Under the pieces are notes generated by a model. The model did not search any database. It had not been told where the DNA came from and saw only the letters and a list, made by a program, of their open reading frames with translations. A DNA stretch of 64,000 bases from Leuconostoc lactis KCTC 3528 = DSM 20202 (GTDB taxonomy: Bacteria; Bacillota; Bacilli; Lactobacillales; Lactobacillaceae), in assembly GCF_014651235.1 (NCBI RefSeq), contig NZ_BMWM01000004.1, forward strand, positions 1 to 64,000. The letters are read 5' to 3'. A program made the position numbers and the translations under genes. This document shows positions 7,657-54,400 of the stretch, one piece after another (position 1 is the stretch's first letter; each line of letters begins with the position of its first letter).

Positions 7657-7781
7657 ACTAACGTCTCCTCATTGTTGTCACATACCATAAAACCATTGTT
7701 TAAATTCTATTTTACGCGTCTCTGTATTTTTTAACAAAAAAAGATACTGTTTACGCAACGTGTCTTGTTAATTAGCAGGAT

Positions 7782-8240
7782 TTAAAACGGATTCAATTGA
7801 AATGACCAAGGGATATATTGCCGAAAAATGTAATGCAAACCAGCCAGCAGACCAGCTACCACTGCCAAGACCAAAAGATCATCACTTTGGAATGCTTGCG
7901 TTTGCTGCAATGACCAACCCACTCCTTGTACGCCAATATAGAGCACACTAAACCATCCAAAATAGGCCGCTAAAATATTCCCGCCAATGCGGGTCGTTTT
8001 GTCAAACCAGTTCTCTGGTTGCCCAGCAAAAAACTTCACATGTAACCAATCCAAAAACAACATGATAAACACAAAACTGATCATATCCATGCTGACTAAT
8101 TTCAAAATAGTCCAATAATCTTGCGGCACACTAAATGGTTGTTGGTGCCAAAGGTTAAGCAAATAAGCGGTCAAAATATCTGACCCCAAAATAAATAATA
8201 ACCAACTCAACGGTTTTGCACGTACCATATCACGAATCAT
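7782..8240 (-). CDS. Four-helix membrane protein, unknown function
   Basis: Not recognised. The 152-residue protein has four hydrophobic segments (about residues 12-32, 48-68, 85-108 and 122-140), joined by short loops with aromatic and charged residues. The ATG at 8240-8238 is preferred because AAGGGAG lies six bases before it; the longer TTG start would place that RBS inside the gene. It has no operon partner closer than about 125 bases on either side. The layout resembles small integral membrane proteins of lactobacilli without known function. Confidence 0.6.
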   Translation of the reverse strand: MIRDMVRAKPLSWLLFILGSDILTAYLLNLWHQQPFSVPQDYWTILKLVSMDMISFVFIMLFLDWLHVKFFAGQPENWFDKTTRIGGNILAAYFGWFSVLYIGVQGVGWSLQQTQAFQSDDLLVLAVVAGLLAGLHYIFRQYIPWSFQLNPF

Positions 8241-39604: not shown

Positions 39605-40911
39605 ATTGCGCCCCCAAACGTTAATTCCTGCCTGACACGGGTCTTTTCAGTTACCGTAATCAATTCAATATCTTGCCGTTGCATCAAAAATTGATGCACA
39701 AAATACAAGCCTAGTCCCGCATGGCCATGCTTTGATGAATAGCCAACCTGTTTAGACGCGGTCGTGTCTAATCGGTGTAAACAGCTATTGATGATCGCCA
39801 CTTGTTCCGAACCAACAAACACAATCGTCACCAACTTTTCTGGTGTTTCAATGGCCGCTTCAATCGCATTGTCGAGTAAAATGCCAAAAACACGATAAAA
39901 ATCAACATCCATTTTAAGGGCGACCGGTTGAAAAACTTGCTGAATATCAACTGCAAACTGCACACTTTGCCGTAATGCCTGTTGATATTTAACTAATAGC
40001 ATACTGCGTAAATTAACGTCAGCAATTAAATGCAGTGCTAGTGTTTGCGTCTCCGGTAAGGCCTGCTGGCTCGTTTCAATCACGGATTCATAAGCGTATT
40101 GCACATCCGCCATATTGCCATTTTGGATACCGTAAGCCAAACTCGCTAAAATATTTTTATAGTCATGTCGAAATGTGCGATACGCCAAATATTGCTTTTC
40201 CAGCTGATTCGTATACTGCTGTGTTGCAGCTAACATGTGATCACGTTGCTGTAATTTACACGTTAATAGGTCATATTGATGCCGCAATGCGGGCAGCCCG
40301 ATAATCAGCAGCACCCCCACCAGCGATAATATTTCCCACATCACTGATCCTTGGTACGCTGTATGATGCCACAAATAAGCTAAATAATCGTTTAAACCAC
40401 GCATGCCAAACCCAATCATTAAAAAAACGCCGAGTTGCCGGGGATGACGTTGAAAAAAACTGGTGGTTAACCATTTGAAACGATATAGATACGGTACAAT
40501 CGCGACCACAATCGTCACAACCCCAGCCATTAAATAACCGAGTAACTGAATGACTAAGGGGAGCGTCAGGAGTGACAATATGGCCAATGCGACATTGTAC
40601 ACCCAAGCAACCAGTAACGAACTCACAATGGCATCCAGTAACAACACACCAAGCGGTGTTGCTTGCTGTATTCGTCGCCCAACATAAACTAAACTCACAA
40701 TGAGTAGCGTTGACGTTACACTTACCTGATAAGCTGTTGGCACCAGCCAACGGCTGATCGCTGTCACGATGACTAACCAGCCTAAAAGTTGCCCTATCGT
40801 CCGACGTGCTACCTGAGGTTGTCCCAATAATAGGCCAAACCAAACAACCGCCGCAATCGTCGACGCCAGTGGTTGCATCAGCAAATTAATATATGACAAA
40901 ATTGTTAGCAT
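39601..40911 (-). CDS. Peptide-pheromone histidine kinase (AgrC/ComD/PlnB-like)
   Basis: 436 residues: about six N-terminal helices (1-200), a coiled linker, then a HPK10-type kinase core with H-box FRHDYKNILASL (about 250), N-box GILLDNAIEAAIE (about 350) and G-box GLGLYFVHQFL (about 408). Such kinases read secreted peptides and control bacteriocin or competence genes. GGAGGAG precedes the ATG. The intact kinase is coupled to a response regulator broken by TAG, so signalling is probably lost or re-routed. No convincing pheromone gene lies in 40912-41172 or 38778-38878. Confidence 0.85.
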   Translation of the reverse strand: MLTILSYINLLMQPLASTIAAVVWFGLLLGQPQVARRTIGQLLGWLVIVTAISRWLVPTAYQVSVTSTLLIVSLVYVGRRIQQATPLGVLLLDAIVSSLLVAWVYNVALAILSLLTLPLVIQLLGYLMAGVVTIVVAIVPYLYRFKWLTTSFFQRHPRQLGVFLMIGFGMRGLNDYLAYLWHHTAYQGSVMWEILSLVGVLLIIGLPALRHQYDLLTCKLQQRDHMLAATQQYTNQLEKQYLAYRTFRHDYKNILASLAYGIQNGNMADVQYAYESVIETSQQALPETQTLALHLIADVNLRSMLLVKYQQALRQSVQFAVDIQQVFQPVALKMDVDFYRVFGILLDNAIEAAIETPEKLVTIVFVGSEQVAIINSCLHRLDTTASKQVGYSSKHGHAGLGLYFVHQFLMQRQDIELITVTEKTRVRQELTFGGAI

Positions 40912-41107
40912 GGCACTCCTCCGTGCGTCACCTTGATGCGTGTCATGATCAGTGGTGACTTGTCACGCTTAAATTCATCATTCGCCAATCGCTGGCCAAT
41001 TATCATTTTTCTCACGTTGATGTCATCTTCATCATTTTATAATAACTATAATAAAACAAATAAGATGTTAACGCAAATCAGCCCTAATCACTACGCCAAT
41101 TATCAAA

Positions 41108-41141
41108 AAAAATACGCGACCGCAATTGGTCGCGTATTTTT
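41108..41141 (-). terminator. Terminator of the UPF0324 gene
   Basis: AAAAATACGCGACC and GGTCGCGTATTTTT with a 6-base loop, downstream of the leftward permease gene. Confidence 0.85.
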
Positions 41142-41172
41142 GATGTGTCTGCCTTAAAAGTGGACAAGATGA

Positions 41173-42162
41173 TTAAAATAGCACCTTAATCAAAGCCACG
41201 GCTAAGACAACCTGTGCTACACCGGTCAGTAAGCCATAAGACAAGAACTTACCACCAGAATTTTTAATGGTTTCAAACTTAAGGTTCAAACCAATGCCAG
41301 CCAAGTTAACAACACCGAAGAAACTAGCCGTTTCATGGGCTGAATGCGTCACAACGTCCGGCAACTTCACAAAACTAGCCAAGAGCAAGAATGCCAAGAA
41401 CGCGATGACAAACCAAGGGACAGAAACGCCTTTAGCCGCCGCTTCGATGCTCTTATCACTGCGTTGTGCCATTTTGGCAAAGATCACGACCACAACGGTT
41501 AACAGAATGACACGTAGCATCTTAAACAACGTAGCGTACGTGACAACTGATTGGTTAATCAATGTGGCCGTTCCGACTACTTGACCCACTGACTGCAAAG
41601 TACCACCGACTAAGGCACCCAACAAAAGATTGTTATTACCAACCAAGTCAGGGCCAATCACTGGTAGCAAAAGCAAGAGGACAACACCAGTCAAACTAAC
41701 TGTGGCCACGGCCGTGCGGCGTTGGTCATCATTGGCCCCAATGGCTGGCGCCACAGAAGCAATCGCACTTGAACCACAGACGGCGTTTCCAGCGCCCATC
41801 AACATCGCTGACTTATCGGAAACTTTAAACAAGCGACCACCCATCCAAAGGACAACAACAATTGTTAAGGCCATTTGAATTAAGATGAACGCAATCCCGT
41901 TTAAACCAAGATTTTCAATGGTTCTCAATGTAACCGTTAATCCCATCAACGCAATCCCGATTTCAATCGGATACTTTTCCGCCCACTTCATACCTGGGGC
42001 AAATTTTTCGTGACGCAAGATGGTATTACCGAGCACAATACCAATCAGCATTGCAATCGCCTCGCTCCCTAGAAAAGGTAGCCAGACAGATAAATATTTT
42101 GCAATAACTGACACAATGAATGTGGCCACGATCCCTAAAATCATGTTCCTTTTAATTGCCAT
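41173..42162 (-). CDS. UPF0324 (YeiH-like) membrane protein
   Basis: 329 residues, about ten helices, of the UPF0324/YeiH family annotated as putative sulfate exporters. Family landmarks: MLIGIVLGN (about 40), the conserved GNAVCGSSAIASVAPAI with a membrane Cys (about 125), and ALVGGTLQSVGQVVGTA (about 185). GGGAG precedes the ATG by seven bases. Biased codon use suggests good expression. In other bacteria YeiH is induced by a LysR regulator and linked to sulfur compounds; there is no regulator next to it here. Confidence 0.85.
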   Translation of the reverse strand: MAIKRNMILGIVATFIVSVIAKYLSVWLPFLGSEAIAMLIGIVLGNTILRHEKFAPGMKWAEKYPIEIGIALMGLTVTLRTIENLGLNGIAFILIQMALTIVVVLWMGGRLFKVSDKSAMLMGAGNAVCGSSAIASVAPAIGANDDQRRTAVATVSLTGVVLLLLLPVIGPDLVGNNNLLLGALVGGTLQSVGQVVGTATLINQSVVTYATLFKMLRVILLTVVVVIFAKMAQRSDKSIEAAAKGVSVPWFVIAFLAFLLLASFVKLPDVVTHSAHETASFFGVVNLAGIGLNLKFETIKNSGGKFLSYGLLTGVAQVVLAVALIKVLF

Positions 42163-42213
42163 ATATTATCTCCCTCACAATCAAAATTGAATTCTATGTT
42201 GCTCCCCAAACGA

Positions 42214-42229
42214 CGTTTCACGTGAAACA
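42214..42229. promoter_or_regulatory. parS: parS-like site, one mismatch
   Basis: CGTTTCACGTGAAACA differs from the 16-base parS only at the first base. It sits in the gap upstream of the UPF0324 gene, about 22 kb from dnaA. Confidence 0.8.
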
Positions 42230-42234
42230 TAGTG

Positions 42235-43021
42235 TTATGCTGACGCAAACGCCACCCACAATTTGACAATAGCTTGTACACCCTCATCGCCATGGGTTTT
42301 ATTGAGTTTGGCAAACAATTGCTCTGCCAGTGCTGTGCCTGGTAGGTCAATAGCCATCTCAGCGGCTGCATCTAATGCAATACGCAAATCTTTTAATAGA
42401 TGTTTCACATAAAAACCAGCCGCAAAATCATCTGCCATAATCCGTGTCATATAATTGGTGACCGACCATGAGCCTGCTGCACCGTTCCGCCAGATATTGT
42501 AAGCAGCGTCAAGATTTAAGCCTGCCGCCTCAGCATAGGCCATAGACTCTGCCATCCCAATAACTGTTGCAGCAACCCCAATATTGTTGCTCATTTTCAT
42601 ATGCTGACCCTTACCGGCATCACCAGCAAGCACAATGTTTAGCCCCAATATCACCACCTGAAACCGGCGCATCAAGCACGCCAATGCCAAGTTCTTGCCC
42701 CATTGTGGCAAGCTTTTCAGCTAATTTAGGTGTAGAGGTCGTCATATCAACCAAAATATCGCCAGACTTGGCGCCAGAAAATAGCCCGTCTTGACCAGTC
42801 CACACCGCTTCCACGTCTTTTGGATAGCCAACCATGGTAAATGTTATGTCAGCAGCCTGAGCAACTGCAGCTGGCGAATCTGCCCAACGTGCGCCATTGG
42901 CAATCACATCGTCCGCCTTCTCACGTGTTCGGTTATACACGATCACGTCGTGCTTGGCGGCTAATAAACTATTAATCATGCCAGTGCCCATGACGCCCGT
43001 TCCAACAAAGCCAATCTTCAT
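42235..43021 (-). pseudogene. 3-hydroxyisobutyrate-dehydrogenase-like gene with internal deletion
   Basis: The N-terminal part (from 43021) is normal for beta-hydroxyacid dehydrogenases: GFVGTGVMGTGM, then VLDAPVSGGDIGAK (substrate loop), where the frame ends at 42620. The rest continues in another frame to 42235: NIVLAGDAGKGQHMKMSNN with the catalytic Lys, then the C-terminal helical domain. About 25-28 residues that normally link these blocks are missing. The junction TTGGGGCTAAA can be read both as the end of ...IGAK and the start of LGLN..., so recombination between two short direct repeats explains both loss and shift. Confidence 0.9.
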
Positions 43022-43096
43022 ATTGCTTCTCCCTCAACAATTGCCATACGATTGCCAACATAGTTATTACATAACCCTTATTATCAGTCAGACCCT

Positions 43097-43128
43097 AAAA
43101 AAAAACAACCGTCATTTGGTTGTTTTTT
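43097..43128 (-). terminator. Terminator of the D-hydroxyacid dehydrogenase gene
   Basis: AAAAAACAACC and GGTTGTTTTTT with a 7-base loop, read leftward after the 43195 stop. Confidence 0.75.
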
Positions 43129-43194
43129 CAGAAAATTTAACTGATTTTTTTCTAATATTTTTCTTTGTAACACCCACCAGATAAATTGCTCAAT

Positions 43195-44184
43195 CTACCG
43201 TAGAATTTCATTATCCGTATACCCACCATTAGCAAGGGTTACTGCGTCGTTTAACGCCATTTCAACCATGTTTTTAATGGCTGTATTCGTATAAAAAGCA
43301 ATATGCGGCGATAAATAAAAATTATCCAATTGCGTTAGTCGTTGAATATTTTCTGGTGAATCCGTCACTGCCTGCTTTTGATTCATAAACTCATTTTCAT
43401 TGGGCGTCACATCAACCGCTGCACCGTATAATTGACCGGTATTCAAACTAGTTTCTAAAGCTGCCATATCGACAATCTCCCCACGTGCCATGTTTAATAG
43501 GATGGTACCTGGTTGGATTTTATCAAAAAAGGCTTGATCCGCTAAGTTCCGCGTTTCCTCATTTAAAGGCGTATGAAAGCTAATCACATTGGCACGTGCC
43601 AAAGCATCATCTAATGTTGTGTATTCAACAAAGGCTTCGTTCTGCGCACGATAAACTGGATCAACGCCTAACACTTTGGCTCCCAAAGCATGCAACATTT
43701 GCGCAAAAGCTGAGCCAATACGACCAACGCCAATAATAGCAACTGTTAACTGATAAATTTCCCGTGCTTGGCCACCAGCTGCCCATGTGTAATCACCGGT
43801 TGCCATGGCCCGTTCAAATTTCTTGTTATGCCGTACAATATTAAATAACTGAGTTAAGGTATATTCGGCAATTGCCCGTGGCGAGTAGGCCGCAACATTA
43901 GAAAGTCGAATTTTTTGACTAAAGGCAGCGGGCACATCAAAAACATCATAGCCAACTTGGCGCAAAGCAATTTGTTTAATCCCACTTTCAGCAAGTATCT
44001 GATACACCGGCGCTGGCATTGCCGTTGTCTGTTGCGTGCTGACCGCATCAAATCCCGCGGCTTGTCCCGCATTGTCAACCGTTAATGGTTCGGATAATGT
44101 AACCACCTCGTGCCCTGTTTTGGCCATCCAAGCGGTCACAAAAGGTTGTTCTTCGGCAACTGTATTGTACATGAGTATTTTCAT
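43195..44184 (-). CDS. D-2-hydroxyacid dehydrogenase (D-lactate dehydrogenase-like)
   Basis: 329 residues. NAD-binding VAIIGVGRIGSAFAQ (about 147), then Arg in NMARGEIVD (about 232), the Glu of the relay in DVTPNENEF, and His in LSPHIAFYT (about 293), the catalytic triad of D-LDH/D-HicDH. The N-terminal lid region (ALRQVGYDVFDV) is typical of D-LDH. It reduces pyruvate or a branched 2-ketoacid with NADH. Heterofermenters make D-lactate, so D-LDH is reasonable, but several paralogs usually exist. It lies upstream of a decayed hydroxyacid dehydrogenase gene in the same direction. Confidence 0.85.
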   Translation of the reverse strand: MKILMYNTVAEEQPFVTAWMAKTGHEVVTLSEPLTVDNAGQAAGFDAVSTQQTTAMPAPVYQILAESGIKQIALRQVGYDVFDVPAAFSQKIRLSNVAAYSPRAIAEYTLTQLFNIVRHNKKFERAMATGDYTWAAGGQAREIYQLTVAIIGVGRIGSAFAQMLHALGAKVLGVDPVYRAQNEAFVEYTTLDDALARANVISFHTPLNEETRNLADQAFFDKIQPGTILLNMARGEIVDMAALETSLNTGQLYGAAVDVTPNENEFMNQKQAVTDSPENIQRLTQLDNFYLSPHIAFYTNTAIKNMVEMALNDAVTLANGGYTDNEILR

Positions 44185-44226
44185 ATTTTGCCCACCTTTC
44201 TCTTATGATACTCATATTTATTGTAA

Positions 44227-44253
44227 ACGAAAAGCACGCTAAAAGCGGGCTTT
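44227..44253 (-). terminator. Terminator of tyrS
   Basis: AAAAGCACGC pairs with GCGGGCTTTTT (one A-G mismatch) across a 5-base loop, five bases after the tyrS stop. Confidence 0.65.
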
Positions 44254-44257
44254 TTGA

Positions 44258-45505
44258 TTATTTTACTTTGCCGAGGAAATACTTCTTCTTCCCACGACGG
44301 ACCAATACAAATTGCCCATCGTAGTGTGTTGAAGGATCTACTTCAGCTGCGACATCGGTCACCTTTTCACCATTGATTGTAATAGCGCCGTTCGTCACGT
44401 CTTCTCGTGCTTGACGCTTTGATGGTTCCACACCACCATCAACCAAGAAGTCAACCACATTCTTGATTTCATTAGGTGTATCAAAGCTTGGTACGCCACC
44501 AAAGGCATCACCAATTTGCGCAGCCGAAAGCGTTGCCACATCCCCACTAAAGAGAGCCGCTGATAACTTTTCTGCGTCTTCAACAGCTGCTTGACCATGG
44601 ACAAACTTCGTCACTTCTTGTGCCAAACGACGTTGTGCCAAACGATCACCTGGGCTTGTTTCAACGGCCTTCGCCAACGTTTCAATTTCATCCACGCTTA
44701 AGAAAGTGAAATACTTCAAGTACTTCACCACGTCAGCATCACTTTGATTCAACCAGAATTGGTAGAAAGTATAAGGTGAGGTCTTCTTTGGATCCAACCA
44801 GATAGCGTTTCCTTCAGATTTGCCAAACTTCTTACCCGTTGAATCCGTCATCAAAGGAATGGTGAGCCCAAAGGCCTTCGCATCATTGCCTTCAAGTGAA
44901 TGGATCAAATCAATACCAGACGTGATGTTACCCCATTGATCAGAACCACCAATTTGCAACTTAACGTCTTCGCGACGCCACAATTCATGGAAATCAATCC
45001 CTTGTAACACTTGGTAAGTAAATTCAGTAAATGAAATTCCGGTTTCCAAACGTGACGCCACGACATCCTTTTTCAACATGACGTTAATTGAGAACAACTT
45101 CCCATAATCACGCAAAAAGTCGGTCAATGTCAATTTGCCTAGCCAATCATTGTTATTCACAATACGGGTGTCATCATCACCAAAGAGCTTTGTCACTTGC
45201 GCTGTGATGCCCTTTTCGTTTTCAGCTAATTGTTCAGGCGTCAAAAGTTGACGTTCTGTTGTGGGCCGTGGGTCGCCAATGGCCCCAGTTGCCCCACCAA
45301 CAATAATCACTGCCTTACCACCAGCGTTTTGGAAACGCTTTAACACCATAAAGGGAATCAAGTGGCCAAGATGCAGAGAATCAGCAGTCGGGTCTGTCCC
45401 AACGTAAGCACCAATCTTGCCATCGGCCATTGCTTCTAATAACCCTTCTTCGTCTGTGACCTGATTTAACGCGCCACGCCATTTTAGATCTTCAATAAAA
45501 TTCAT
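44258..45505 (-). CDS. tyrS: Tyrosyl-tRNA synthetase
   Basis: 415 residues from the ATG at 45505-45503 behind AAAGGAG; the longer frame is T-box leader. It is a class I synthetase: the HIGH-type motif is HLGHLIPF (about 46-53), KMSKS-type motif KFGKSEG (about 225), tyrosine-binding GGSDQWGNI (about 190), and a C-terminal S4 RNA-binding domain (about 345-415; PSKRQAREDVTNGAITINGE). It charges tRNA-Tyr and is controlled by the T-box leader at 45533-45735. Confidence 0.97.
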   Translation of the reverse strand: MNFIEDLKWRGALNQVTDEEGLLEAMADGKIGAYVGTDPTADSLHLGHLIPFMVLKRFQNAGGKAVIIVGGATGAIGDPRPTTERQLLTPEQLAENEKGITAQVTKLFGDDDTRIVNNNDWLGKLTLTDFLRDYGKLFSINVMLKKDVVASRLETGISFTEFTYQVLQGIDFHELWRREDVKLQIGGSDQWGNITSGIDLIHSLEGNDAKAFGLTIPLMTDSTGKKFGKSEGNAIWLDPKKTSPYTFYQFWLNQSDADVVKYLKYFTFLSVDEIETLAKAVETSPGDRLAQRRLAQEVTKFVHGQAAVEDAEKLSAALFSGDVATLSAAQIGDAFGGVPSFDTPNEIKNVVDFLVDGGVEPSKRQAREDVTNGAITINGEKVTDVAAEVDPSTHYDGQFVLVRRGKKKYFLGKVK

Positions 45506-45532
45506 CTGTCTCTCCTTTGTTGTCGTTAAAAT

Positions 45533-45735
45533 AGCAAAAACCGTCCTATAACAACTATAGGACGGTTTTAACCGTGGTACCACCTAAATTGTAAGTCATC
45601 GGACCTACCACTTATTACGCCTTATCGCGGCAGACGTCATACTACTTAATGTTGTGTAACTCGAGCACAGCGGCGGGCTAGTTCACAGCACCCACTAACT
45701 TTCTTTGACGCGCCAATCTGTGTCTTTATCAACTG
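45533..45735 (-). promoter_or_regulatory. Tyrosine T-box riboswitch of tyrS
   Basis: Read leftward: stem I is closed by GTTG (45734 region) and CAAC. The specifier loop shows GT-UAC-A, i.e. the tyrosine codon UAC followed by a purine. The T-box core AGGTGGTACCACGGT is at 45585-45571, and the terminator hairpin CCGTCCTATA/TATAGGACGG with a T run at 45569-45536. Uncharged tRNA-Tyr should turn tyrS on. Confidence 0.95.
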
Positions 45736-45900
45736 ATGATGTTTTTATTATATCAGATAATCTGATCAATATGTGATTTTTATCAGAATTACGGCATGAA
45801 TGCTTCGTCCATGACAGCAACACTCACATTATTTCTAGTCATCCCCGTTTTCTCTGGTAGAATGGCCTTATATCGCCTAAATTGCTTTTTGGAGGTTGCG

Positions 45901-46839
45901 ATGTCAAACCGTTTAAAAGCCATTAGTATCGGTATTGTGGCCGCTTTTTTCTTTTCGATCACATTTATCGTTAACGAAGTCATGGCCAATGCCAAAGGTT
46001 ACTGGGGCTATACTGCTGCCCTACGTTATCTTTGGATGCTCCCCTTAATGCTGATTGTGAATCGTTATTTAGGTTCCAATTTGGCACACGTCCTAGCCTT
46101 CATCAAACAAAACTTAATAGCGTGGCTCATCTGGTCACAAGTATGCTTTGTGTTGTTTTATGTACCCCTGAGTTGGGCAGTTGATTATCTCCCTGGTTGG
46201 CTGATTTCAGCAACTTGGCAACTCACGATTATCTTTGGGGTGTTAACCACCCCATTAGTTAAAGTCACACGACCAAATGGGCAAAAACAAGCACTAAAAA
46301 TCCCACTGGCATCGCTGCCGTGGATGTTAGTCATTTTACTAGGTGTTTTGCTAACTGTCGCTGCTTTTCTCTACCACTTACAGCATATCACACCAATGCT
46401 GCTGGCAATTGGCGCCATCATGCTTGGGGCCGTCGCTTATCCGCTTGGTAATCGCAAAATTATGGCAGTGGTTGATCCGAGCATGACGGCAACCGAAAAA
46501 GTGCTGGCGATGTTGCTTTGTTCTTATCCTGTGTGGCTTTTAATTGCCGGACTTTCCTATCATCAGGTCGGTTTGCCGCATATGGGTCAAGTCATCAATA
46601 CCTTTGTCGTCGCCTTATCTTCTGGCGTTATTGCAACCGTGCTCTTTTTTAAAGCTACCCAACTCGCGGCGCATAATATGCGAGAATTAGCTGCCGTTGA
46701 AGCGACCCAATCCATGGAAGTGGTGTTTTCCGTGCTCCTCAGCCTCATGTTTCTTGGCCATGCGCTCCCCACGCCAAGCCAACTATTAGGGTTGACGCTG
46801 ATGGTAGGTGGCATTATTATGCTGGCGATTCGTGAATAA
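45901..46839 (+). CDS. DMT-type multidrug efflux transporter (EmrE/EamA-like)
   Basis: 312 residues from the ATG at 45901, five bases after GGAGG; the longer frame crosses this RBS. About ten hydrophobic helices in two repeats, starting AISIGIVAAFFFSITFIVNE. It matches the 'multidrug resistance efflux transporter' branch of the drug/metabolite superfamily (PF13536). AAVEATQSMEVVFSVLLSL near residue 265 is the second-repeat signature. The substrate is unknown. A terminator follows directly. Confidence 0.8.
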   Translation: MSNRLKAISIGIVAAFFFSITFIVNEVMANAKGYWGYTAALRYLWMLPLMLIVNRYLGSNLAHVLAFIKQNLIAWLIWSQVCFVLFYVPLSWAVDYLPGWLISATWQLTIIFGVLTTPLVKVTRPNGQKQALKIPLASLPWMLVILLGVLLTVAAFLYHLQHITPMLLAIGAIMLGAVAYPLGNRKIMAVVDPSMTATEKVLAMLLCSYPVWLLIAGLSYHQVGLPHMGQVINTFVVALSSGVIATVLFFKATQLAAHNMRELAAVEATQSMEVVFSVLLSLMFLGHALPTPSQLLGLTLMVGGIIMLAIRE

Positions 46840-46852
46840 GCCCATCCGAAAA

Positions 46853-46882
46853 CAAGCTGCCTGTTTTTTGGCAGTTTTTTTG
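46853..46882 (+). terminator. Terminator of the efflux gene
   Basis: CTGCC and GGCAG with flanking A/T pairs form a hairpin followed by seven T, just after the 46839 stop. Confidence 0.65.
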
Positions 46883-46887
46883 TGCCC

Positions 46888-47367
46888 TTAGGTGCTTGCC
46901 GACGGTGGTGTGATGAACAAAGCAACCCCAGTCCACATACGACTAAATGCTGATAGCGACAGCTTAATTTTCCCCACTGCAGGATCTGGATCTGCCATGC
47001 ATAAGTCCTGCCCAGCTCGCCCGTAAACCACGACATAATGATAGTCGCCAGTGGGTTGTCGGACATGGACAATAAATGGCAACAGTAAATCAGGTTGGGT
47101 TAATAACGTCTGATCTGCTTGCAGAGCCAACGTGTCAAAATGAAGCGTTTGCGCTGCTGACAATAACCCATAGGCTGTTGTGCCTAACGCATTAGTCTGC
47201 GTCAATTGGCGTAGCCGTGACAGCGCTGGAGATGTCCCATAGTGGGCAATCACCATGGCTAGGGCTGCCAGTCCGCAAGCCATTTCATCTTCTTGTGCGA
47301 TATATTGGAAGTTTGGTTGTGTCATCTTATGTTTTAGCCAATACCATATCGGCACGCTGCTTATCAT
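46888..47367 (-). CDS. Stand-alone C39 (double-glycine) peptidase
   Basis: 159 residues, or 145 if translation starts at the inner ATG (47325). The whole chain is a peptidase C39 domain, normally the N-terminal part of bacteriocin ABC exporters. Oxyanion Gln25 and nucleophile Cys31 lie in QEDEMACGLAALAMV, His110 in GDYHYVVVYG and Asp126 in MADPDPA, all with family spacing, so the enzyme looks active. The ABC membrane and ATPase parts are absent: a stop follows the domain. It lies 39 bases after a gene whose product begins with a double-glycine leader, its likely substrate. The RBS is poor; a 10-codon mini-ORF ending one base before the ATG suggests coupled translation. Confidence 0.85.
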   Translation of the reverse strand: MISSVPIWYWLKHKMTQPNFQYIAQEDEMACGLAALAMVIAHYGTSPALSRLRQLTQTNALGTTAYGLLSAAQTLHFDTLALQADQTLLTQPDLLLPFIVHVRQPTGDYHYVVVYGRAGQDLCMADPDPAVGKIKLSLSAFSRMWTGVALFITPPSAST

Positions 47368-47406
47368 GTTATCCGTTTATAATAGGTTTTAGATTAGTCA
47401 TGGTCA

Positions 47407-47661
47407 TTATTTCAACATACGGTCACAAGTTGTGTTAAACAGCTCCGCCATTTGAATAATGAGATCAACATCGGGTAACCGCTTACCTTCTTCATAACGC
47501 GCAATGGTTGAGGTACAAACATTTAACTTGTCCGCCAAATCCCGACGGCTAAGTCGCGCCCCGGTTCTAAGTGCTGTTAAATTTTGAGGTAATTGATGGC
47601 CACCAGTAATTTGCTTTAACTGTGCAATGGTCATTTGCTGATAACGTGTCTGATTCAACAT
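47407..47661 (-). CDS. XRE HTH protein with a double-glycine leader
   Basis: 84 residues from the second of two ATGs, six bases after AAGGAG (the first ATG is only three bases away). Residues 10-21 read MTIAQLKQITGG, with hydrophobic residues at -12, -7 and -4 and Gly-Gly at -2/-1, the consensus of leaders cut by C39 peptidases; Tyr at -15 also fits. Residues 30-80 are a complete XRE/Cro helix-turn-helix (ALRTGARLSRRDLADKLNV, then TIARYEEGKRLPDVD). The strong RBS makes the leader part of the translated protein. Its neighbour is a lone C39 peptidase. Inferred: a regulator matured, or exported, by that protease. I know of no characterised precedent. Confidence 0.8.
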   Translation of the reverse strand: MLNQTRYQQMTIAQLKQITGGHQLPQNLTALRTGARLSRRDLADKLNVCTSTIARYEEGKRLPDVDLIIQMAELFNTTCDRMLK

Positions 47662-47701
47662 CATTTTCTCCTTATTTTCGTCTGCCTACCACGACATGTA
47701 C

Positions 47702-47720
47702 TATTGGATTTCTGCCAATA
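47702..47720. promoter_or_regulatory. Operator-like dyad between divergent regulators
   Basis: TATTGG and CCAATA are perfect inverted repeats with a 7-base spacer, in the 102-base gap between the leader-HTH gene and the divergent XRE/TetR hybrid. Either protein could bind it. Confidence 0.5.
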
Positions 47721-47763
47721 CTATCATTGTACGAAGATCGCATCAAAACGCTTGGAGAAAATT

Positions 47764-48492
47764 ATGACAATTGGTCACCAGATTAAATTGCTAAGACAGT
47801 CAAAAGGGCTCACCCAACGCGATTTGGCAGATACGCTTTATATTTCCTATCAAGCTGTCTCCAATTGGGAGCGCCATCAAAGTCAGCCCACCGCTGATAT
47901 GTTGCTTGCTATCCTTGAAAAATATCACTTACCACATGACTTTTTCATCACCCAATCAAGTCAACAACACTGCACGCAAGAAAAAGAACAAATCTTACGT
48001 GGTTTTTTGGAGAGTCTCATGTATTGTGCCAGTAAACCGCCAAGTTATGCCACAATTGCCCAGTTTGCGAATCTCTCAATCACGCAAATTTGCCAACACT
48101 TTCCCGATTATGATGCACTCGTTAATCAGTTTATGGTCACCGTTGACGACCAGATTAAACCCAACGTTGAACTGCATCTTATCGCACACGAAGATTTGAT
48201 CACGATTTTTTCAACCCATATGGCGCCACGCTTATATGCCGAACGGCAGAAATTGCACCTGTTATACACCCGTCCCTACTTGAAAGACACTTGGTTACGC
48301 TTTATTAAAGGACGCTACAAACAACTTATCCGACAATGGCAACCAAAAGCCATCGAAGCCACCTACATGCTTGACGTGCTTATTACGTTCATTTCTGTGT
48401 GGTTGAGTGCCATACACCCCGAACCATTGGCAACTTTTCAACGGCGTATTCAGCATCTTACCCGCATCCCTATGCAATCTTGGCCACAGTAA
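47764..48492 (+). CDS. XRE/TetR hybrid transcriptional regulator
   Basis: 242 residues from ATG 47764 behind TTGGAG; the longer frame lacks an RBS. Residues 3-60 are an XRE HTH (LRQSKGLTQRDLADTLYISY then QAVSNWERHQSQPTADML). Residues about 75-240 look TetR-like, with a second HTH (YATIAQFANLSITQICQHFP, about 98-117) and a helical ligand domain. The same arrangement recurs at 51854, with shared blocks such as LYTRPY and FISVW. Two DNA-binding modules in one chain are unusual. It is divergent from the leader-HTH/C39 pair and may control it. Confidence 0.75.
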   Translation: MTIGHQIKLLRQSKGLTQRDLADTLYISYQAVSNWERHQSQPTADMLLAILEKYHLPHDFFITQSSQQHCTQEKEQILRGFLESLMYCASKPPSYATIAQFANLSITQICQHFPDYDALVNQFMVTVDDQIKPNVELHLIAHEDLITIFSTHMAPRLYAERQKLHLLYTRPYLKDTWLRFIKGRYKQLIRQWQPKAIEATYMLDVLITFISVWLSAIHPEPLATFQRRIQHLTRIPMQSWPQ

Positions 48493-48531
48493 AATCCCAG
48501 GCACCGCGTGTAGCGGTACCTGGGATTTTTT
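48491..48531 (+). terminator. Terminator of the hybrid regulator gene
   Basis: AAAATCCCAGGCACCGC and GCGGTACCTGGGATTTTTT with a 5-base loop and one mismatch. The following 48532-48758 holds no gene that I can see. Confidence 0.85.
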
Positions 48532-48758
48532 AATTTTAGACAATAAAAAACCTACACCACTCATCACTACCCTGACCTAAAGTCTGTCTTAAGTTAGATG
48601 TTTAGCATAGGTACCCCTAGTTTGAGAACTCTGTTTCAATATGTAACAGCCTCACCTAGTATTCTATCAAATTGTCGGCTTAAAAAATTCAATTTATAAC
48701 GCTATTTTTTTGCGTAAAACATATGCGTGACTTTTTATAACAATTGTGTTATATAAAA

Positions 48759-49313
48759 TCATTTATTCGCAATTAACTGAATAAATTTTTCATGAAAACG
48801 TGTATCAGCTGTCAATTCTGGATGAAAAGCGGTCACTAAAATATGTGCATATTGCGCCGTGATCACCTTTTCGTCATCAATTGTGGCCAAAACCGTTACC
48901 GATTCATCAACAGCTGTCAGATACGGCGCCCGAATGAAAACACCATGAAACAGTTCATCAAATCCAACCACCGAAATGGCTTGCTCAAAACTATCTTTTT
49001 GCCGGCCAAAGCCATTACGCACCACCGTTGCTGGTAACGCGCCAAATGCCTTTGCTTGGGTTAAAAGCACCATTCCAGCACAGGTGCCAAAAACTGGTAA
49101 GCCAGCCTGAATCAACTGTCTTAACGGCTCAAGTAGTTGTTCTTGTACGAGCAATTTGTAAATCACTGTACTCTCCCCACCGGGAATAATAAGCCCATCA
49201 ATGCCCGATAAGTCGGCAGCTTTTTTGATTAATTTTGCATCAACTTGGCACTTAGTCAACATGTCAACATGTTCACTGACTGCCCCTTGTAAATCCAATA
49301 CGCCAACAATCAT
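48759..49313 (-). CDS. pdxT: Pyridoxal 5'-phosphate synthase glutaminase subunit
   Basis: 184 residues, a class I glutaminase: IIPGGEST (about 46), nucleophile Cys in FGTCAGMVLL (about 78), and His/Glu in VTAFHPELT (about 168). It feeds ammonia to PdxS, making PLP directly from ribose-5-phosphate, glyceraldehyde-3-phosphate and glutamine. It starts 12 bases after pdxS behind AAGGGAG. Confidence 0.95.
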   Translation of the reverse strand: MIVGVLDLQGAVSEHVDMLTKCQVDAKLIKKAADLSGIDGLIIPGGESTVIYKLLVQEQLLEPLRQLIQAGLPVFGTCAGMVLLTQAKAFGALPATVVRNGFGRQKDSFEQAISVVGFDELFHGVFIRAPYLTAVDESVTVLATIDDEKVITAQYAHILVTAFHPELTADTRFHEKFIQLIANK

Positions 49314-49325
49314 TCCTATTCTCCC

Positions 49326-50207
49326 TTAGATGCCACGACTGGCCATTTTTTGGTCTTCTGAAAGCGTGGCTATTTCAATGCCCTTCATAGGCTTACCAAT
49401 ATTTTTTGACACTTCGGCAATCAAAGCGTAATCAGTGGGATGCGCCGTTGCGGCCACGATCGCTTTGGCAAATTTTTCTGGATTTTCGGAGTGGAAAATG
49501 CCTGAACCCACAAACACCCCATCAGCGCCAAGGTTCATCATCAAGGCAGCATCTGCTGGCGTAGACACACCGCCCGCAGCAAAATTAATGACAGGTAGCT
49601 TGCCATGTTCATGAACGTAGGTCACCAAATCATACGGTGCCCGCAAATCACGGGCAATCGTCATTAATTGATTCGGGTTGGCCGCTTGCACTTGCGCAAT
49701 TTGTTCATTAACTTTTTCCATGTGGCGGACTGCTTCAATGATATTGCCCGTCCCTGGTTCGCCTTTGGTCCGTAACATTGAAGCCCCTTCACCAATCCGG
49801 CGTAAGGCTTCGCCCAGATCACGGCAGCCACACACAAATGGCACCTCAAAGGCCGTTTTATCAATGTGGTAGGTGTCATCTGCTGGGGTTAGCACTTCAC
49901 TTTCATCAATGTAATCCACGCCGACCGCTTCTAACACACATGCTTCAACAAAATGCCCAATGCGTGCTTTTGCCATCACCGGAATTGTTACGGCGGCCAT
50001 AATTTGTTCGACCATGGCTGGATCAGACATGCGTGCGACACCGCCAGCAGCGCGAATATCAGATGGGACACGTTCTAGGGCCATGACAGCTACAGCACCA
50101 GCTGCTTCAGCAATTTTTGCTTGTTCGACGTTGGCAACGTCCATAATCACGCCGCCTTTTTGCATTTGTGCCATCCCGCGCTTAACCAATGTGGTGCCTT
50201 TTTCCAT
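49326..50207 (-). CDS. pdxS: Pyridoxal 5'-phosphate synthase, PdxS subunit
   Basis: 293 residues, (beta/alpha)8 barrel with near-invariant family segments: KGGVIMDV with the catalytic Asp and the Lys in [12 protein letters not shown] (about 80), and [15 protein letters not shown] (about 150). Two PdxS-PdxT pairs form the 24-subunit PLP synthase. AGAGGAG lies eight bases before the ATG. It is divergent from pdxR, with AACCAATT repeats between them. Confidence 0.97.
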
Positions 50208-50278
50208 GATTCATACTCCTCTAATGTTTGTGATTTGAATTTCATTCTATTTTAAGTTATGCTGAATTGACTGAGAAC

Positions 50279-50310
50279 AACCAATTGGTTTAATTTTTGA
50301 CCAACCAATT
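50279..50310. promoter_or_regulatory. PdxR operator repeats
   Basis: AACCAATT occurs at 50279-50286 and 50303-50310, with the reverse copy AATTGGTT at 50283-50290 making the palindrome AACCAATTGGTT. They lie between divergent pdxS and pdxR and overlap a plausible pdxR promoter (TTGACT-16-TTTAAT). Arrays of direct and inverted repeats are typical of MocR/PdxR sites. Confidence 0.75.
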
Positions 50311-50327
50311 TAAAAGGAGCACCGATC

Positions 50328-51764
50328 TTGCGCTGGCAACTACCATCACACGACAAAAAGGCCGTCTACTTGCAGCTGATTAATGTCATTTTACAAGGGA
50401 TTGAACAAGGCGCCTTACTACCAGGCGAACAACTGCCACCAGAACGCCAACTTGCACATGACTTAGGCGTCAACCGTTCAACCGTCCAACACGCCCTCAA
50501 TGAATTAGTCAGCCAAGGGATTTTACTGCGGCAACAAGGGAGTGGCACTTGGGTTAACTCGGGCAAATGGGGTGTTTTATCGGCACATGTCAACTGGCGA
50601 AACTACTTTACAACGGATCGTTTAAGTGATCCGGAAAGCTTTATGGTGCAACTCAAACAATTACGACAACAGCCGGAAGTTTTAAATTTAGCCGACAGTC
50701 AGACCGAAAATGCGCCTTTACGTCAGCTAGCACTCCCAAGTATCGCCATGGCCACGCTACTGCAACAAAACACCGCCAACGCAATGAGTGGTAGTCCCGC
50801 ATTAAAAGCACAAATCAGGCGACACTTGCACCCCTATCTCAACCAACCCCTGCCAGATGAGCAACTCCTGATTACCGCGGGTGCCCAGCAAGCCTTTTTC
50901 TTAATTGCCCAAGGATTGTTATCCTATGGTGATGCCATTGCCATTGAATCGCCGTCTTATTTGTACCAACTCGCCTTATTTCAAGTCGCCGGTATTCGGG
51001 TTTTTGGCGTGCCACGCACAAAAAATGGCGGGCTATCCCTCGACGATTTGCAACATTTATATTACCAACACCATTTAAAATTCATCTTCGTCAATCCAAC
51101 CAATCAAAACCCAACGACTCAAACCATGCCATTAGCTGAACGGCACGCCCTGATTGCGCGGTGCCGGCAACTCAATTTACCCATTGTTGAAGACGATCCT
51201 TTTGGCTTCACACTCGCGCTTAGTCAGCAAAGTATCCCCACGCTTAAGCAATTGGATCCCAATAATGTTATCTATATCGGTTCCCTTTCTGAATTTAGTG
51301 GTGCTGACACCCGAATTGGTTGGTTGATTGCCCCACCAGCCATCGTTACGCGCTTATCAGAAATTCGCCAAGAAATGGAATCCGGCATCAGTATTTTTTC
51401 TCAGTATCTGGCAACCCAACTCTTGAGCCACCCCAACTTAGCCGACTTGGTCGCCCAGCAGCAACACCAATTAGCGCATGCGCGCCAACGGCTGTTACGC
51501 CTACTCGCACCCTTTGTGGCACAAGGTCAATTGGCTTATCAAATCCCGACTTTAGGCAATACACTGTGGCTTCATATTTTAACCAAATCGACAATGACCC
51601 GCGCTGATTATCAAGTATTTCTCGATCAGCAACTGCTGGTTCTACCAGATTTCTTATTTGGTCGTCACAGTAACCATGTCCGTTTAAGCTATTCGCAACT
51701 CCCCGCGGATGATACCCTATTAAAGCAACGTCTACAGGCCGTAATGGCACAATTAATCGATTGA
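50328..51764 (+). CDS. pdxR: MocR-family regulator of PLP synthesis
   Basis: 478 residues from a TTG start eight bases after AAAGGAG. N-terminal GntR winged HTH (about 10-78; LPPERQLAHDLGVNRSTVQH) fused to a fold-type I aminotransferase domain (about 110-478). PdxR proteins activate pdxST and repress themselves when PLP is low, PLP being the bound effector. The region SLSEFSGADTRIGWL replaces the usual PLP-lysine context (SxxKxxxPxxRxG): the Lys position reads Ser-Gly, so a Schiff base may not form here. Confidence 0.88.
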   Translation: MRWQLPSHDKKAVYLQLINVILQGIEQGALLPGEQLPPERQLAHDLGVNRSTVQHALNELVSQGILLRQQGSGTWVNSGKWGVLSAHVNWRNYFTTDRLSDPESFMVQLKQLRQQPEVLNLADSQTENAPLRQLALPSIAMATLLQQNTANAMSGSPALKAQIRRHLHPYLNQPLPDEQLLITAGAQQAFFLIAQGLLSYGDAIAIESPSYLYQLALFQVAGIRVFGVPRTKNGGLSLDDLQHLYYQHHLKFIFVNPTNQNPTTQTMPLAERHALIARCRQLNLPIVEDDPFGFTLALSQQSIPTLKQLDPNNVIYIGSLSEFSGADTRIGWLIAPPAIVTRLSEIRQEMESGISIFSQYLATQLLSHPNLADLVAQQQHQLAHARQRLLRLLAPFVAQGQLAYQIPTLGNTLWLHILTKSTMTRADYQVFLDQQLLVLPDFLFGRHSNHVRLSYSQLPADDTLLKQRLQAVMAQLID

Positions 51765-51853
51765 CGACTAGGTTTTTTAAACCAGTTAGTGTATGATGAA
51801 CGTGTTTAGTACACGCCCTGCATCATTTAAAAGATAAAATTTGAGGAAAAATA

Positions 51854-52600
51854 ATGGCGATTGGTAACCAAATTAAAGCGCTACGAAAATCACTTGGCTT
51901 GACCCAACAAACATTTGCTGACAAACTATTTATTTCCTATCAATCCGTTTCCAATTGGGAACGGGCTAAAAACCATCCTACCGCTGAAATGATGCTCACC
52001 ATCATTGAAACGTTTCATTTACCGCTGAATTTTTTTATGCCCAGCGACCAAAATAGTCAAGATCTCGATGACGAACAACTCATTTTAGCCGCTTTCATTA
52101 AAAGTATGCGCGCGAGTGCTGATAAAATCCCGACAATGGCAGCCATTGCCCAATTGGCTGGCCTATCCATTGAACGCGTCATGGCTTATTTCCCAACGTT
52201 CGATGATTTAGCTTATGCCACTATTAATGCTGTCGATGATAATATTAAAACCAAAATCGAGTCGCGGTTAGCCGTTGAACCTGATATTTTAACGGTTTTT
52301 ATCAATGATATGACGCCCTTACTTTATCAAGAACACAAAGTTCTCCATATCTTATATACGCGACCCTATATTCGTGGGGTGTGGGTACAATTCTTGAAAG
52401 CCAAATATAAGTCCCTTTTGATTAAATATCAACCACGGGCGGCGCAAGATGTCCTGGGTACGGAATACTACATCGAAACCTTAACTGGCTTTATCTCGGT
52501 TTGGATGAGCCAAAAAAAGCCTGAATCCTTAACTGATTATCAAAAACGGTTACGTGCTTTGACAAGCCAGCCACTCGCCATGTGGCATACCTTAAGTTAA
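51854..52600 (+). CDS. XRE/TetR hybrid transcriptional regulator, paralog
   Basis: 248 residues behind GAGG. XRE HTH at 3-60 (LRKSLGLTQQTFADKLFISY, then QSVSNWERAKNHPTAEMM), then a TetR-like part with a second HTH (AIAQLAGLSIERVMAYFPTF, about 97-116) and shared blocks LHILYTRPY and GFISVWMSQ with the 47764 protein. A small dyad CGTGT/ACACG (51801-51815) lies just downstream of a possible -10 (TATGAT, 51792) and may be its own operator. It precedes the PadR-DUF4097-PspC operon, but a terminator separates them. Confidence 0.75.
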   Translation: MAIGNQIKALRKSLGLTQQTFADKLFISYQSVSNWERAKNHPTAEMMLTIIETFHLPLNFFMPSDQNSQDLDDEQLILAAFIKSMRASADKIPTMAAIAQLAGLSIERVMAYFPTFDDLAYATINAVDDNIKTKIESRLAVEPDILTVFINDMTPLLYQEHKVLHILYTRPYIRGVWVQFLKAKYKSLLIKYQPRAAQDVLGTEYYIETLTGFISVWMSQKKPESLTDYQKRLRALTSQPLAMWHTLS

Positions 52601-52631
52601 AAAAGACAACCATTGCTTCGTTGTCTTTTTT
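52601..52631 (+). terminator. Terminator of the paralogous hybrid regulator
   Basis: AAAAGACAAC and GTTGTCTTTTTT with a 9-base loop directly after the stop codon. Confidence 0.8.
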
Positions 52632-52643
52632 ACTCTGCTTGAC

Positions 52644-52680
52644 AAATTACTTTGACAAACACAGTAATTTTTCCTATAAT
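52644..52680 (+). promoter_or_regulatory. Consensus promoter with PadR-type operator
   Basis: TTGACA (52652-52657), 17 bases, TATAAT (52675-52680): a perfect sigma-A promoter. AAATTACT (52644-52651) and AGTAATTT (52663-52670) are perfect inverted repeats (spacer 11) that bracket the -35, the expected place for repression by the PadR protein encoded next. Confidence 0.85.
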
Positions 52681-52709
52681 GAACTCAAGATTAAGTGGAG
52701 GACAATAAG

Positions 52710-53057
52710 ATGTCAATTTCTAAAGACCTTATTCGTGGTCACATTGATACCATGATTCTCAATATTCTCCAACAGCAGGATTCTTATGGTTATCAAGTCG
52801 CCAAATCAGTTCGCTTACTCAGCCAGCAACAATATGAACTGAACGAAGCAACTTTATACACGGCTTTTCGGCGTTTAGAAAAAAGTGGTGATATTACCAG
52901 TTATTGGGGCGATGAAACCCAAGGGGCTCGCCGGAAATACTATAAGATTACTGCTACTGGCCAGCAACACCTCCAACAAGCGATTGTTGACTGGCAATTT
53001 GCAAAAGATGTGATTAGCCAGCTCATCACTGGCACGATTGCAGAAGGAGACAAATAA
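52710..53057 (+). CDS. PadR-family regulator
   Basis: 115 residues from the ATG at 52710, eight bases after GTGGAGG. Typical PadR winged helix: SYGYQVAKSVRLLSQ, LNEATLYTAFRRLEKSGDI and RRKYYKITATGQQHL, followed by a short dimerisation helix. PadR proteins of this subgroup (LadR/YqjI/lia-like modules) control envelope-stress genes and respond to membrane-active compounds. It heads an operon with a DUF1700/DUF4097-type protein (start overlaps its TAA by one base) and a PspC protein. Confidence 0.9.
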   Translation: MSISKDLIRGHIDTMILNILQQQDSYGYQVAKSVRLLSQQQYELNEATLYTAFRRLEKSGDITSYWGDETQGARRKYYKITATGQQHLQQAIVDWQFAKDVISQLITGTIAEGDK

Positions 53058-54400
53058 TGACTTCAATTGAACTCGCGATACGTACTCGCCTAGACGTTAT
53101 TTTTTCAAAATATACGCCTAATCCGCAACTTACTGAATTTAAAGAAGAACTCGTGGCTGATTTGCTGGATGCCTATCAAGATTTTGCCCAACAAGACAAA
53201 TCACATGAAGAAGCACTCGATGACACCTTTGCGCAGTTAGGGGATATTGACGCTATTTTACAAGACATGAGTGATTCACATACCCAACAAACTGCGTCTG
53301 ATGACGAGACAACCCAAGATGCGACAGCCCGCTTCTTTGATTTGTCAGATGATGGCTTGCGCCTTGGTAATCTACACATTAATGGTCAAGGTGTCCGTTT
53401 AGGTGACGATATTATCCTTGATGGTAAAAATAATAAAGTACAATTTGGTGATTGGCTGCATGTTGACCGCGCTGGTGCACGGGTTGGTCGTAAATTCTAC
53501 GCCTTTGATACCACTGACGACGATACCACAACCTTTACCGAACAGGCATCAACAAACTCACCACATTGGACTGCGGCGCATCACAGTATTCAGCTGCCCG
53601 TTACCGATCAAGCACTTGTTTTGAATTATAAAAACGCTACCTTAAATTTTTATCGTAACGATAAGACGGATCTCGTAACCATTGATGAATTTTTCAGTCG
53701 CGATAATCAACGCTATTTTGCATCAGTATCCGAAACGCAGGATCAAGTGGTGGTTACCCAAGGTGATACACCACGACTTTTTCAAGTAAAAGTCCATGTG
53801 AATATCGGTTTACCACAAAACTTTTCCGATGGTCATCTGACGGTTACAAATCACGCCGGTCAAGTGATCGCAAAAAACCTCACCCTGAAAACCTTTAATT
53901 TGAATCTGACGGCAGGTAGCTTTCACATCAAGCACCTTCAAGTTCACGAAGCCAATTGGGATTTCAAAGCCAGTGATGTCAGCGGCCGAGATATCACAAT
54001 TGCGCACGCTAAGATGACCAATCAAGCTGGTCGCATCCAACTTGACCATGTCACGTTACCACACAGTCAAATCAACGCAACGTCTGGCACAATTAAAGTT
54101 GATCATTTTATCGGTGGTGGGCAATTTAACACGACATCTGGTACTTTGCGCCTCAAAGTTCAGACACTCACGCACGACTTGCAATTACAAGTCCTCAGCA
54201 GCGATATTCGTCTAACGATGCCTGACACGCAAGATTACTATTTCGATCTCTCATCACAATCAGGCAGTGTGACCATGCCTAACCGACCTGATATGCATTT
54301 TAACCACAATACGCCGCAGGCAAAGCGTGGCTTTACTGGTCAAATGCCAGAATTTACCATTGCGGCCTCAGTAGATTTGGGTACTATCAAAGTCTACTAA
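53057..54400 (+). CDS. DUF1700/DUF4097-type envelope-stress protein
   Basis: 447 residues. Residues 1-75 are a helical DUF1700-like part (ELAIRTRLDVIFSKY, then LVADLLDAYQDFAQQDKSHEEAL). The rest is beta-rich with repeated strands near 270-440 (NLTLKTFNLNLTAGSFHIK, then NATSGTIKVDHF, NTTSGTLRLKVQ, SSQSGSVTMPNRP), the DUF4097/LiaG-like beta-helix, probably adhesin-like and adjacent to the membrane, though no clear transmembrane helix is seen. TAATG coupling to padR. Inferred part of a Lia-like response to cell-envelope damage. Confidence 0.75.
   Translation: MTSIELAIRTRLDVIFSKYTPNPQLTEFKEELVADLLDAYQDFAQQDKSHEEALDDTFAQLGDIDAILQDMSDSHTQQTASDDETTQDATARFFDLSDDGLRLGNLHINGQGVRLGDDIILDGKNNKVQFGDWLHVDRAGARVGRKFYAFDTTDDDTTTFTEQASTNSPHWTAAHHSIQLPVTDQALVLNYKNATLNFYRNDKTDLVTIDEFFSRDNQRYFASVSETQDQVVVTQGDTPRLFQVKVHVNIGLPQNFSDGHLTVTNHAGQVIAKNLTLKTFNLNLTAGSFHIKHLQVHEANWDFKASDVSGRDITIAHAKMTNQAGRIQLDHVTLPHSQINATSGTIKVDHFIGGGQFNTTSGTLRLKVQTLTHDLQLQVLSSDIRLTMPDTQDYYFDLSSQSGSVTMPNRPDMHFNHNTPQAKRGFTGQMPEFTIAASVDLGTIKVY

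Follow-up and report, generated by a model that had tools for sequence, protein, structure and literature searches.

The window analyzed here, a 64-kb stretch of a Leuconostoc genome (labeled G000), carries on its minus strand, in this order, a gene for a small XRE regulator with a double-glycine leader (GG-XRE), a gene for a stand-alone C39 peptidase, a terminator-like hairpin, and a convergent EmrE-family gene; another XRE regulator gene diverges from GG-XRE (Table 1). Terminator-like sites, called by a consensus scan only, numbered three against 1.7 expected in the region. An Rfam scan of positions 40000-54000 returned nothing above gathering scores, and a promoter scan gave one weak match, which lay below the shuffled mean. 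Farther along, at 51854-52600 (+), we observed a second XRE regulator like the divergent one of GG-XRE, followed by a PadR-like gene (named by eye) and a 447-aa gene.

Table 1. Features of the GG-XRE/C39 locus, with positions in the window
Feature	Position	Strand	Basis
GG-XRE, 84-aa regulator composed of a 21-aa double-glycine leader and HTH_3	47407..47661	-	ORF, profile scan, Shine-Dalgarno
Double-glycine leader (Y-15, M-12, L-7, I-4, GG), predicted cut after second Gly	47599..47661	-	Bacteriocin-leader profile, position statistics
HTH_3 DNA-binding domain of GG-XRE	47425..47574	-	PF01381 41.2 bits, residues 31-80 of 85-aa ORF
Shine-Dalgarno AAGGAG of GG-XRE	47668..47673	-	Sequence
Stand-alone C39 peptidase, 145 aa from probable start Met15 (ORF up to 47367)	46888..47325	-	PF03412, ComA alignment, model, dN/dS
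Terminator-like hairpin between C39 gene and convergent EmrE-family gene	46854..46877		Consensus scan, sites on both strands
Divergent intergenic region, candidate operator with ACAATGATAGTATTGG	47665..47763		G000/G002 conservation; putative role
Imperfect inverted repeat within divergent intergenic region	47699-47707/47715-47723		Repeat search
Divergent XRE regulator, ~240 aa, N-terminal HTH_3	47764..48492	+	Profile scan, neighborhoods, dN/dS

The start codon of GG-XRE is the second ATG, at 47661, located 6 nt after AAGGAG; the protein would be one Met longer if translation began at the in-frame ATG at 47664. Its leader comprises 21 residues, with Met at -12, Leu at -7, Ile at -4, and Gly at -2 and -1, and a Tyr at -15, absent from the first description of the locus, completes the double-glycine rule (GG at -2/-1 and hydrophobic residues at -4, -7, -12, and -15). 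The HTH_3 domain begins a few residues past the leader and scores 41.2 bits against a cut-off of 23, which identifies it as an XRE (Cro/CI) regulator domain. The protein does not qualify as a class II bacteriocin, its core being HTH_3 rather than a short antimicrobial core (PF10439 and similar). We thus confirmed the earlier note in its description of AAGGAG followed by a full double-glycine leader on an 84-residue XRE protein. Translation from a start downstream of the leader was considered and is unlikely, a Shine-Dalgarno-like 4-mer being found before the leader start in 22 of the 24 loci listed (exceptions, L038 and L050). AlphaFold, run on the GG-XRE sequence alone, gave a poor model (pLDDT 50.7), which was left out of the argument.

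The neighboring ORF (46888-47367) matches PF03412 at 119.1 bits (cut-off, 22; profile positions 2-131 of 133) and aligns at 115 bits with the ComA peptidase domain 3k8u, with Gln25, Cys31, His110, and Asp126 on the corresponding residues. This bears out the previous claim that the gene encodes a C39 peptidase only, with these four residues intact. The ORF stops at 159 aa and covers positions 1-130 of the 708 of TIGR01193, indicating one C39 domain and nothing else, and it is most closely related to the peptidases of bacteriocin exporters (TIGR01193, 132.5 bits). A PCAT exporter, i.e., C39 fused to ABC transmembrane and ATPase domains plus an accessory protein, was found neither at the locus nor in G000, in which only one C39 domain was detected, that of the gene adjoining GG-XRE. 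The probable start of the peptidase is Met15 (47325), because the upstream ATG of G000 is replaced by GTG in another genome (G012), and the ORF of L. holzapfelii (G002) starts at the Met15 equivalent. Counted from Met15, the four residues are Gln11, Cys17, His96, and Asp112, and the numbering parallels that of full-length ComA 8hf7 (query 22 aligned to chain 8); all four are kept in the G002 relative. An AlphaFold model built on a three-row alignment had a mean pLDDT of 75.2, with residues 1-27, including the Gln, modeled poorly. Its best PDB matches were ComA PEP (5xe8/5xe9/3k8u), with PCAT1 among the top matches and the leader-bound protease 6mpz also among the matches.

The bare leader motif is weak evidence: among 1172 background ORFs, 15 have its GG version within their first 45 residues and 56 have a looser G/S/A-G version. 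Since the motif is not rare, we built a leader profile of 25 positions from 25 bacteriocin precursors of related loci, no HTH protein included. Against the six-frame translation of the G000 genome, the single match up to E 10 was the GG-XRE leader (E 0.0044), and the GG-XRE leader was likewise the single match in G012 (E 0.011). Two matches were obtained in G002, namely, the GG-XRE leader (E 0.0125) and a 51-aa lantibiotic-like ORF (E 0.0102); the latter (L214:6526-6681), a GG ORF, lies near a transposase-like gene and genes of an ABC transporter. The positive controls, G010 (L. gelidum) and G016, gave 10 matches each; among three genomes with no C39 match, the profile found nothing in G009 and reached a best E of 0.57 in G004 and 0.27 in G003. 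In the fetched loci, the domain scores of GG-XREs had a median of 10.0 bits (lowest, 1.9; G000, 16.9), and 88 leaderless HTH proteins scored 2.9 bits or less. Only 1 of 1132 background ORFs (150 aa or longer) scored above the leader of the G000 GG-XRE, and this ORF, from exporter region L116, itself has a GG-peptide-like N terminus. Besides, a scan of the window for a leader combined with a Shine-Dalgarno sequence found GG-XRE as the only small ORF.

Searches of 60 genomes, followed by 397 genomes of the family and 395 of the order, plus plasmid records, yielded no fewer than 24 GG-XRE loci, of which 17 belong to the genus (in 13 of 19 genomes), 5 to four family genomes of other genera (G025 [L. 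fallax], G245, G388, and G396), and 2 to plasmids (Latilactobacillus curvatus and L. mesenteroides). The search profile contained leaders, so that weaker members may be absent and the share among XRE proteins is biased. The earlier note had named homologous HTH proteins that start downstream of the leader as evidence against its reading; homologs in other species retain the leader. In an alignment of 21 GG-XRE leaders (near-identical G012, G001, and G018 left out), Gly at -1, Ile/Val at -4, Leu/Met/Ile at -7, and a hydrophobic residue at -12 were each present in 21 of 21, which was partly demanded by the search motif. Phe or Tyr at -15, not demanded by the motif, occurred in 17 of 20 GG-XRE leaders, compared with 31 of 50 small GG peptides and 7 of 43 chance motif matches; this contrast gave a p of 2.4e-7, a guide only, as the rows are related. 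According to the available parts of two studies, -15, -12, -7, and -4 are the substrate contacts of the PCAT leader (PMC7018657; LahT150, PMC6363468). The GG-XRE leaders keep these contact positions, and GG itself varies to Cys-Gly in the third G010 copy and to Ala-Gly in two members. Between G000 and G002, the leader changed faster than the HTH domain (dN of 0.19 versus 0.09).

Monophyly of the GG-XREs by HTH domain, over 62 columns, had a p-AU of 0.045 with all 23 rows and of 0.39 minus one G396 copy. In the tree, the HTH domain of one G396 GG-XRE was placed close to another XRE group, a hint that the leader was acquired more than once, and in the same genome two unlike GG-XREs flank a C39 exporter operon (L109:3422-3682 and 7671-7958). 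Leaderless small XREs in family genus g4 (L069-L081) have an N-terminal stretch of about GG-leader length that ends in ESG, not GG. In G012:C4, XRE matches recur at a spacing of ~51 kb, suggesting a duplicated stretch in the assembly or plasmid. A phage origin was rejected, as 10 relatives on viral contigs matched mainly over the HTH and ten ORFs had no GG leader by eye. Two further plasmid relatives, one each from Enterococcus and Vagococcus, had no leader motif, and many other plasmid matches covered the HTH only. A frameshift at the C terminus of the G011/G018 GG-XRE was also considered and was not seen in a three-frame translation of the G011 copy.

The surroundings of GG-XREs are often bacteriocin loci. 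A precursor-like GG ORF preceded by a Shine-Dalgarno sequence lies within 3 kb in 16 of the 24 loci listed, often as two such ORFs, and 345 kb of background (the window plus 19 other loci, six of them C39 regions) held 2, one of which is GG-XRE itself. The eight loci with no nearby precursor are those of G000, G012, G002, G001, G016, G011, G018, and the L. mesenteroides plasmid; in G016, a precursor above the PF10439 cut-off exists but failed the filter. When ten peptides neighboring GG-XREs were scanned, two exceeded the PF10439 cut-off, one exceeded the LcnG-beta and ComC cut-offs, six matched such families below cut-off, and one had no match.

A C39 gene was found within 5 kb in 12 of the 24 loci listed (by reading neighborhoods), including the third G010 locus, where C39 is interrupted by a stop, and the L. 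mesenteroides plasmid, where the exporter is broken up. One further locus has a 78-aa C39 remnant near GG-XRE, and C39 lies ~13 to 16 kb from GG-XRE in G001, G015, and G016. At four loci (L037, L109, L110, and L142), GG-XRE comes after the genes for the exporter and its accessory protein, with an 8-nt overlap with the accessory gene in L037 and L142; the accessory gene consists of two ORFs in L110. By genome, 15 of the 17 with a GG-XRE have a C39 match, G006 (L. inhae) having a fragment only. No C39 match was found in G011 and G018 (same locus; G018 is 89% complete), indicating that the tag can persist without the protease. Within the genus, 11 of 13 genomes with a GG-XRE and 2 of the 6 others have a C39 match (p of 0.046, with fragments counted and kinship ignored), and the association by count is modest. 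Elsewhere in the order, none of 58 C39 regions (60 matches minus G000 and G010) held a small XRE with a leader motif, and we take the arrangement to be confined to one lineage because of this. The co-occurrence of leader and C39 that the earlier note had asked about is borne out by the many GG-XREs in bacteriocin/C39 loci and by the neighboring genes of G000; G011/G018 and the 58 C39 regions elsewhere in the order do not show it. Truncated C39 fragments with open frames of 78 aa, 97 aa, and 81 aa were observed in G007 (L044:8225-8461), G006 (L097, G006:C14:36816-37082), and G013 (L098, G013:C34:22172-22306), respectively; the G007 fragment is followed by another XRE gene, a near-identical relative of which is in the locus of the G006 fragment.

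A stand-alone full C39 gene occurs only in G000, G012, and G002 (3 of the 19 genus genomes), each time paired with GG-XRE, and this pairing is strongly supported. In these three genomes, the C39 protein matched nothing else at E 1e-10, and no full C39 exporter was found; a weak 43-position PF03412 match at the cut-off in G002, inside a stretch with a long ORF, is probably due to chance. No accessory protein rose above noise in the three (TIGR01000, only 10.3 bits versus a cut-off of 258.85). A PF10439 peptide search found none in G000 up to E 1 and none convincing in G012 (two partial matches, E 0.65) or G002.

Both genes of the pair are under purifying selection. The dN/dS values were 0.10 (versus G012) and 0.09 (versus G002) for the XRE gene and 0.27 and 0.18, respectively, for the C39 gene. 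When the C39 gene was put through a simple simulation of neutral evolution, an open frame with the catalytic residues was kept in 0.1% of runs at d 0.3, and the frame and four residues were kept in 0 of 2000 runs at d 0.6 and 0 of 2000 at d 1.2. Besides, the lone C39s formed one clade in a quick tree (SH-aLRT of 99; stem, 0.86), apart from the exporter peptidases of the genus, the G002 copy being flagged for its long branch and odd composition. Because of purifying selection and this separate clade on a long stem, the stand-alone form looks old and maintained.

The divergent intergenic region is conserved as well. Between G000 and G002, 75 of 89 aligned bases are identical, with 37 of 39 in the first block (a block chosen after seeing the alignment), despite a dS above 1.2 between the neighboring genes; the first block contains ACAATGATAGTATTGG. 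A divergent XRE regulator of the same type stands beside GG-XRE in 8 of the 24 loci listed, with quite different GG-XRE types. As the region is conserved and the divergent XRE recurs, GG-XRE most likely acts at the divergent promoter that it shares with the neighboring XRE regulator.

Taken together, we consider it fairly probable that the leader tags a regulator for recognition by C39 and that the lone protease cuts this tag in the cytosol, thereby setting the regulator's activity at the divergent promoter. The C39 domain would bind the leader helix through -15, -12, -7, and -4, cut after Gly-Gly, and free an HTH domain of ~63 residues; removal of the leader might switch the regulator on or off, or destabilize it, most likely at the conserved divergent promoter. 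The isolated C39 domain LahT150 cuts GG leaders in vitro (PMC6363468, available part), and a free-standing C39 would therefore need no transporter for proteolysis. GG-XRE is the only C39 substrate candidate detected in two of the three species with the lone pair. That C39 acts on the leader of the HTH protein, as first proposed, has held at the comparative level, the leader being kept in homologs, many GG-XRE genes lying in bacteriocin/C39 loci, and the only leader and only C39 detected in G000 being adjacent. The structure of the locus, its conservation, the pairing, the selection, and the lack of detected exporter parts were observed; what we infer is that the protein is cut, which way the switch works, at which promoter it acts, and that it is tied to export.

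On the same reading, where GG-XREs lie in bacteriocin loci, in Leuconostoc and its relatives, the tag would let the C39 domain of an exporter bind and cut the regulator and perhaps export it, and the level of the regulator would then report free export or processing capacity. In G000 and two sister species, the system would have been reduced to a cytosolic lone C39 and the adjacent GG-XRE. More tentatively, GG-XREs might constitute a new class of C39/PCAT substrates, although we hold this wider reading with less than even confidence. The tagged regulator would vie with bacteriocin precursors for the exporter peptidase, which would thereby read export capacity and set bacteriocin transcription, and the lone pair would be a free-standing proteolytic switch lacking both exporter and bacteriocin.

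Conservation of the binding contacts would also fit sequestration without cutting, in which C39, as an anchor or decoy, would keep GG-XRE bound through its leader until competing precursors release it, proteolysis being incidental. The available part of PMC10986499 describes a peptidase domain needed for substrate interaction, whether proteolytically active or not. Nevertheless, we regard this as unlikely: the lone C39s keep all four catalytic residues, Gly at -1 (demanded by the motif) is present in 21 of 21 leaders and is perhaps unneeded for anchoring, and neither G000 nor G012 yielded a competing precursor. It is less likely again that the lone C39 serves another, undetected substrate with GG-XRE a mere neighbor. 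A 25-position profile can miss divergent leaders, and the lantibiotic-like ORF of G002 is a second leader-like match; nothing else was matched, however, in G000 and G012, in contrast to the 10 matches in each positive control.

The earlier note had alternatively suggested that the HTH protein is itself an exported peptide. Secretion as its main fate, with action outside the cell like a bacteriocin or pheromone, would accord with the resemblance of the leaders to those of neighboring bacteriocins and with the four loci in which GG-XRE belongs to an exporter operon. We found no support for it in G000, and it seems improbable, since the pair is kept in G000, G012, and G002 with neither a full C39 exporter nor an accessory protein detected above noise, and the HTH_3 domain is conserved. 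Least probable of all is the last alternative raised earlier, a relic in which a dead leader fused by chance to a regulator lies beside the remains of a broken exporter and neither matters now: true C39 fragments do exist in the genus (G007, G006, and G013) and GG-XRE occurs without C39 in G011 and G018, but dN/dS values of 0.09 to 0.27, intact ORFs in three species, the deep lone-C39 clade, and 24 loci with leader-type N termini contradict it.

Should the regulator be a C39 substrate as we favor, bacteriocin export would be linked directly to transcription, which would account for producers being able to hold back toxin synthesis when no exporter is free and would amount to a FlgM-like checkpoint in Gram-positive bacteriocin systems. 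The lone pair would in that case offer, in just two genes, a minimal sequence-specific protease/regulator system open to reconstruction in laboratory hosts.

C39 peptidases have been known as enzymes that trim secreted peptides. The PCAT/AMS exporters (ComA, PCAT1, and LahT) share with the present pair the peptidase family, fold, and catalytic residues, as well as the same leader logic (-4, -7, -12, -15, and GG), whereas the present peptidase lacks a transporter and the leader is carried by a DNA-binding regulator instead of a secreted peptide. In the bacteriocin loci, a GG-XRE would be both a controller and a substrate of the export machinery, as is FlgM, the anti-sigma factor that flagella export, although the secretion system and protein family differ. 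ImmA is a metalloprotease, by which ImmR is cleaved. The two-gene logic of ImmR/ImmA in ICEBs1, an XRE regulator with a partner protease gene (PMC8960796, available part), is alike, whereas the present pair has a C39 cysteine peptidase and a bacteriocin-type leader. FapD (NCBIfam NF058616) has a C39 domain outside an ABC exporter, as here, but the lone C39 matches it at E 0.0049 only (16.2 bits versus a cut-off of 330).

In their available parts, the PCAT papers PMC7018657, PMC6363468, and PMC10986499 treat exported peptides; the last of these discusses regulatory outputs of the cyanobacterial exporter HetC and, in that part, reports no GG-leader gene near HetC. Enrichment of HTH Pfams near class II lanthipeptide clusters is described in PMC12715929, the available part of which does not mention a leader. 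A search at title and abstract level, most subscription papers lying outside it, found no GG-leader DNA-binding or HTH protein. Thus, the parts are of known kinds, and the combination of a GG-leader regulator with C39 appears undescribed in the literature covered. The two plasmid records list their GG-XREs under the annotations "hypothetical protein" and "helix-turn-helix transcriptional regulator."
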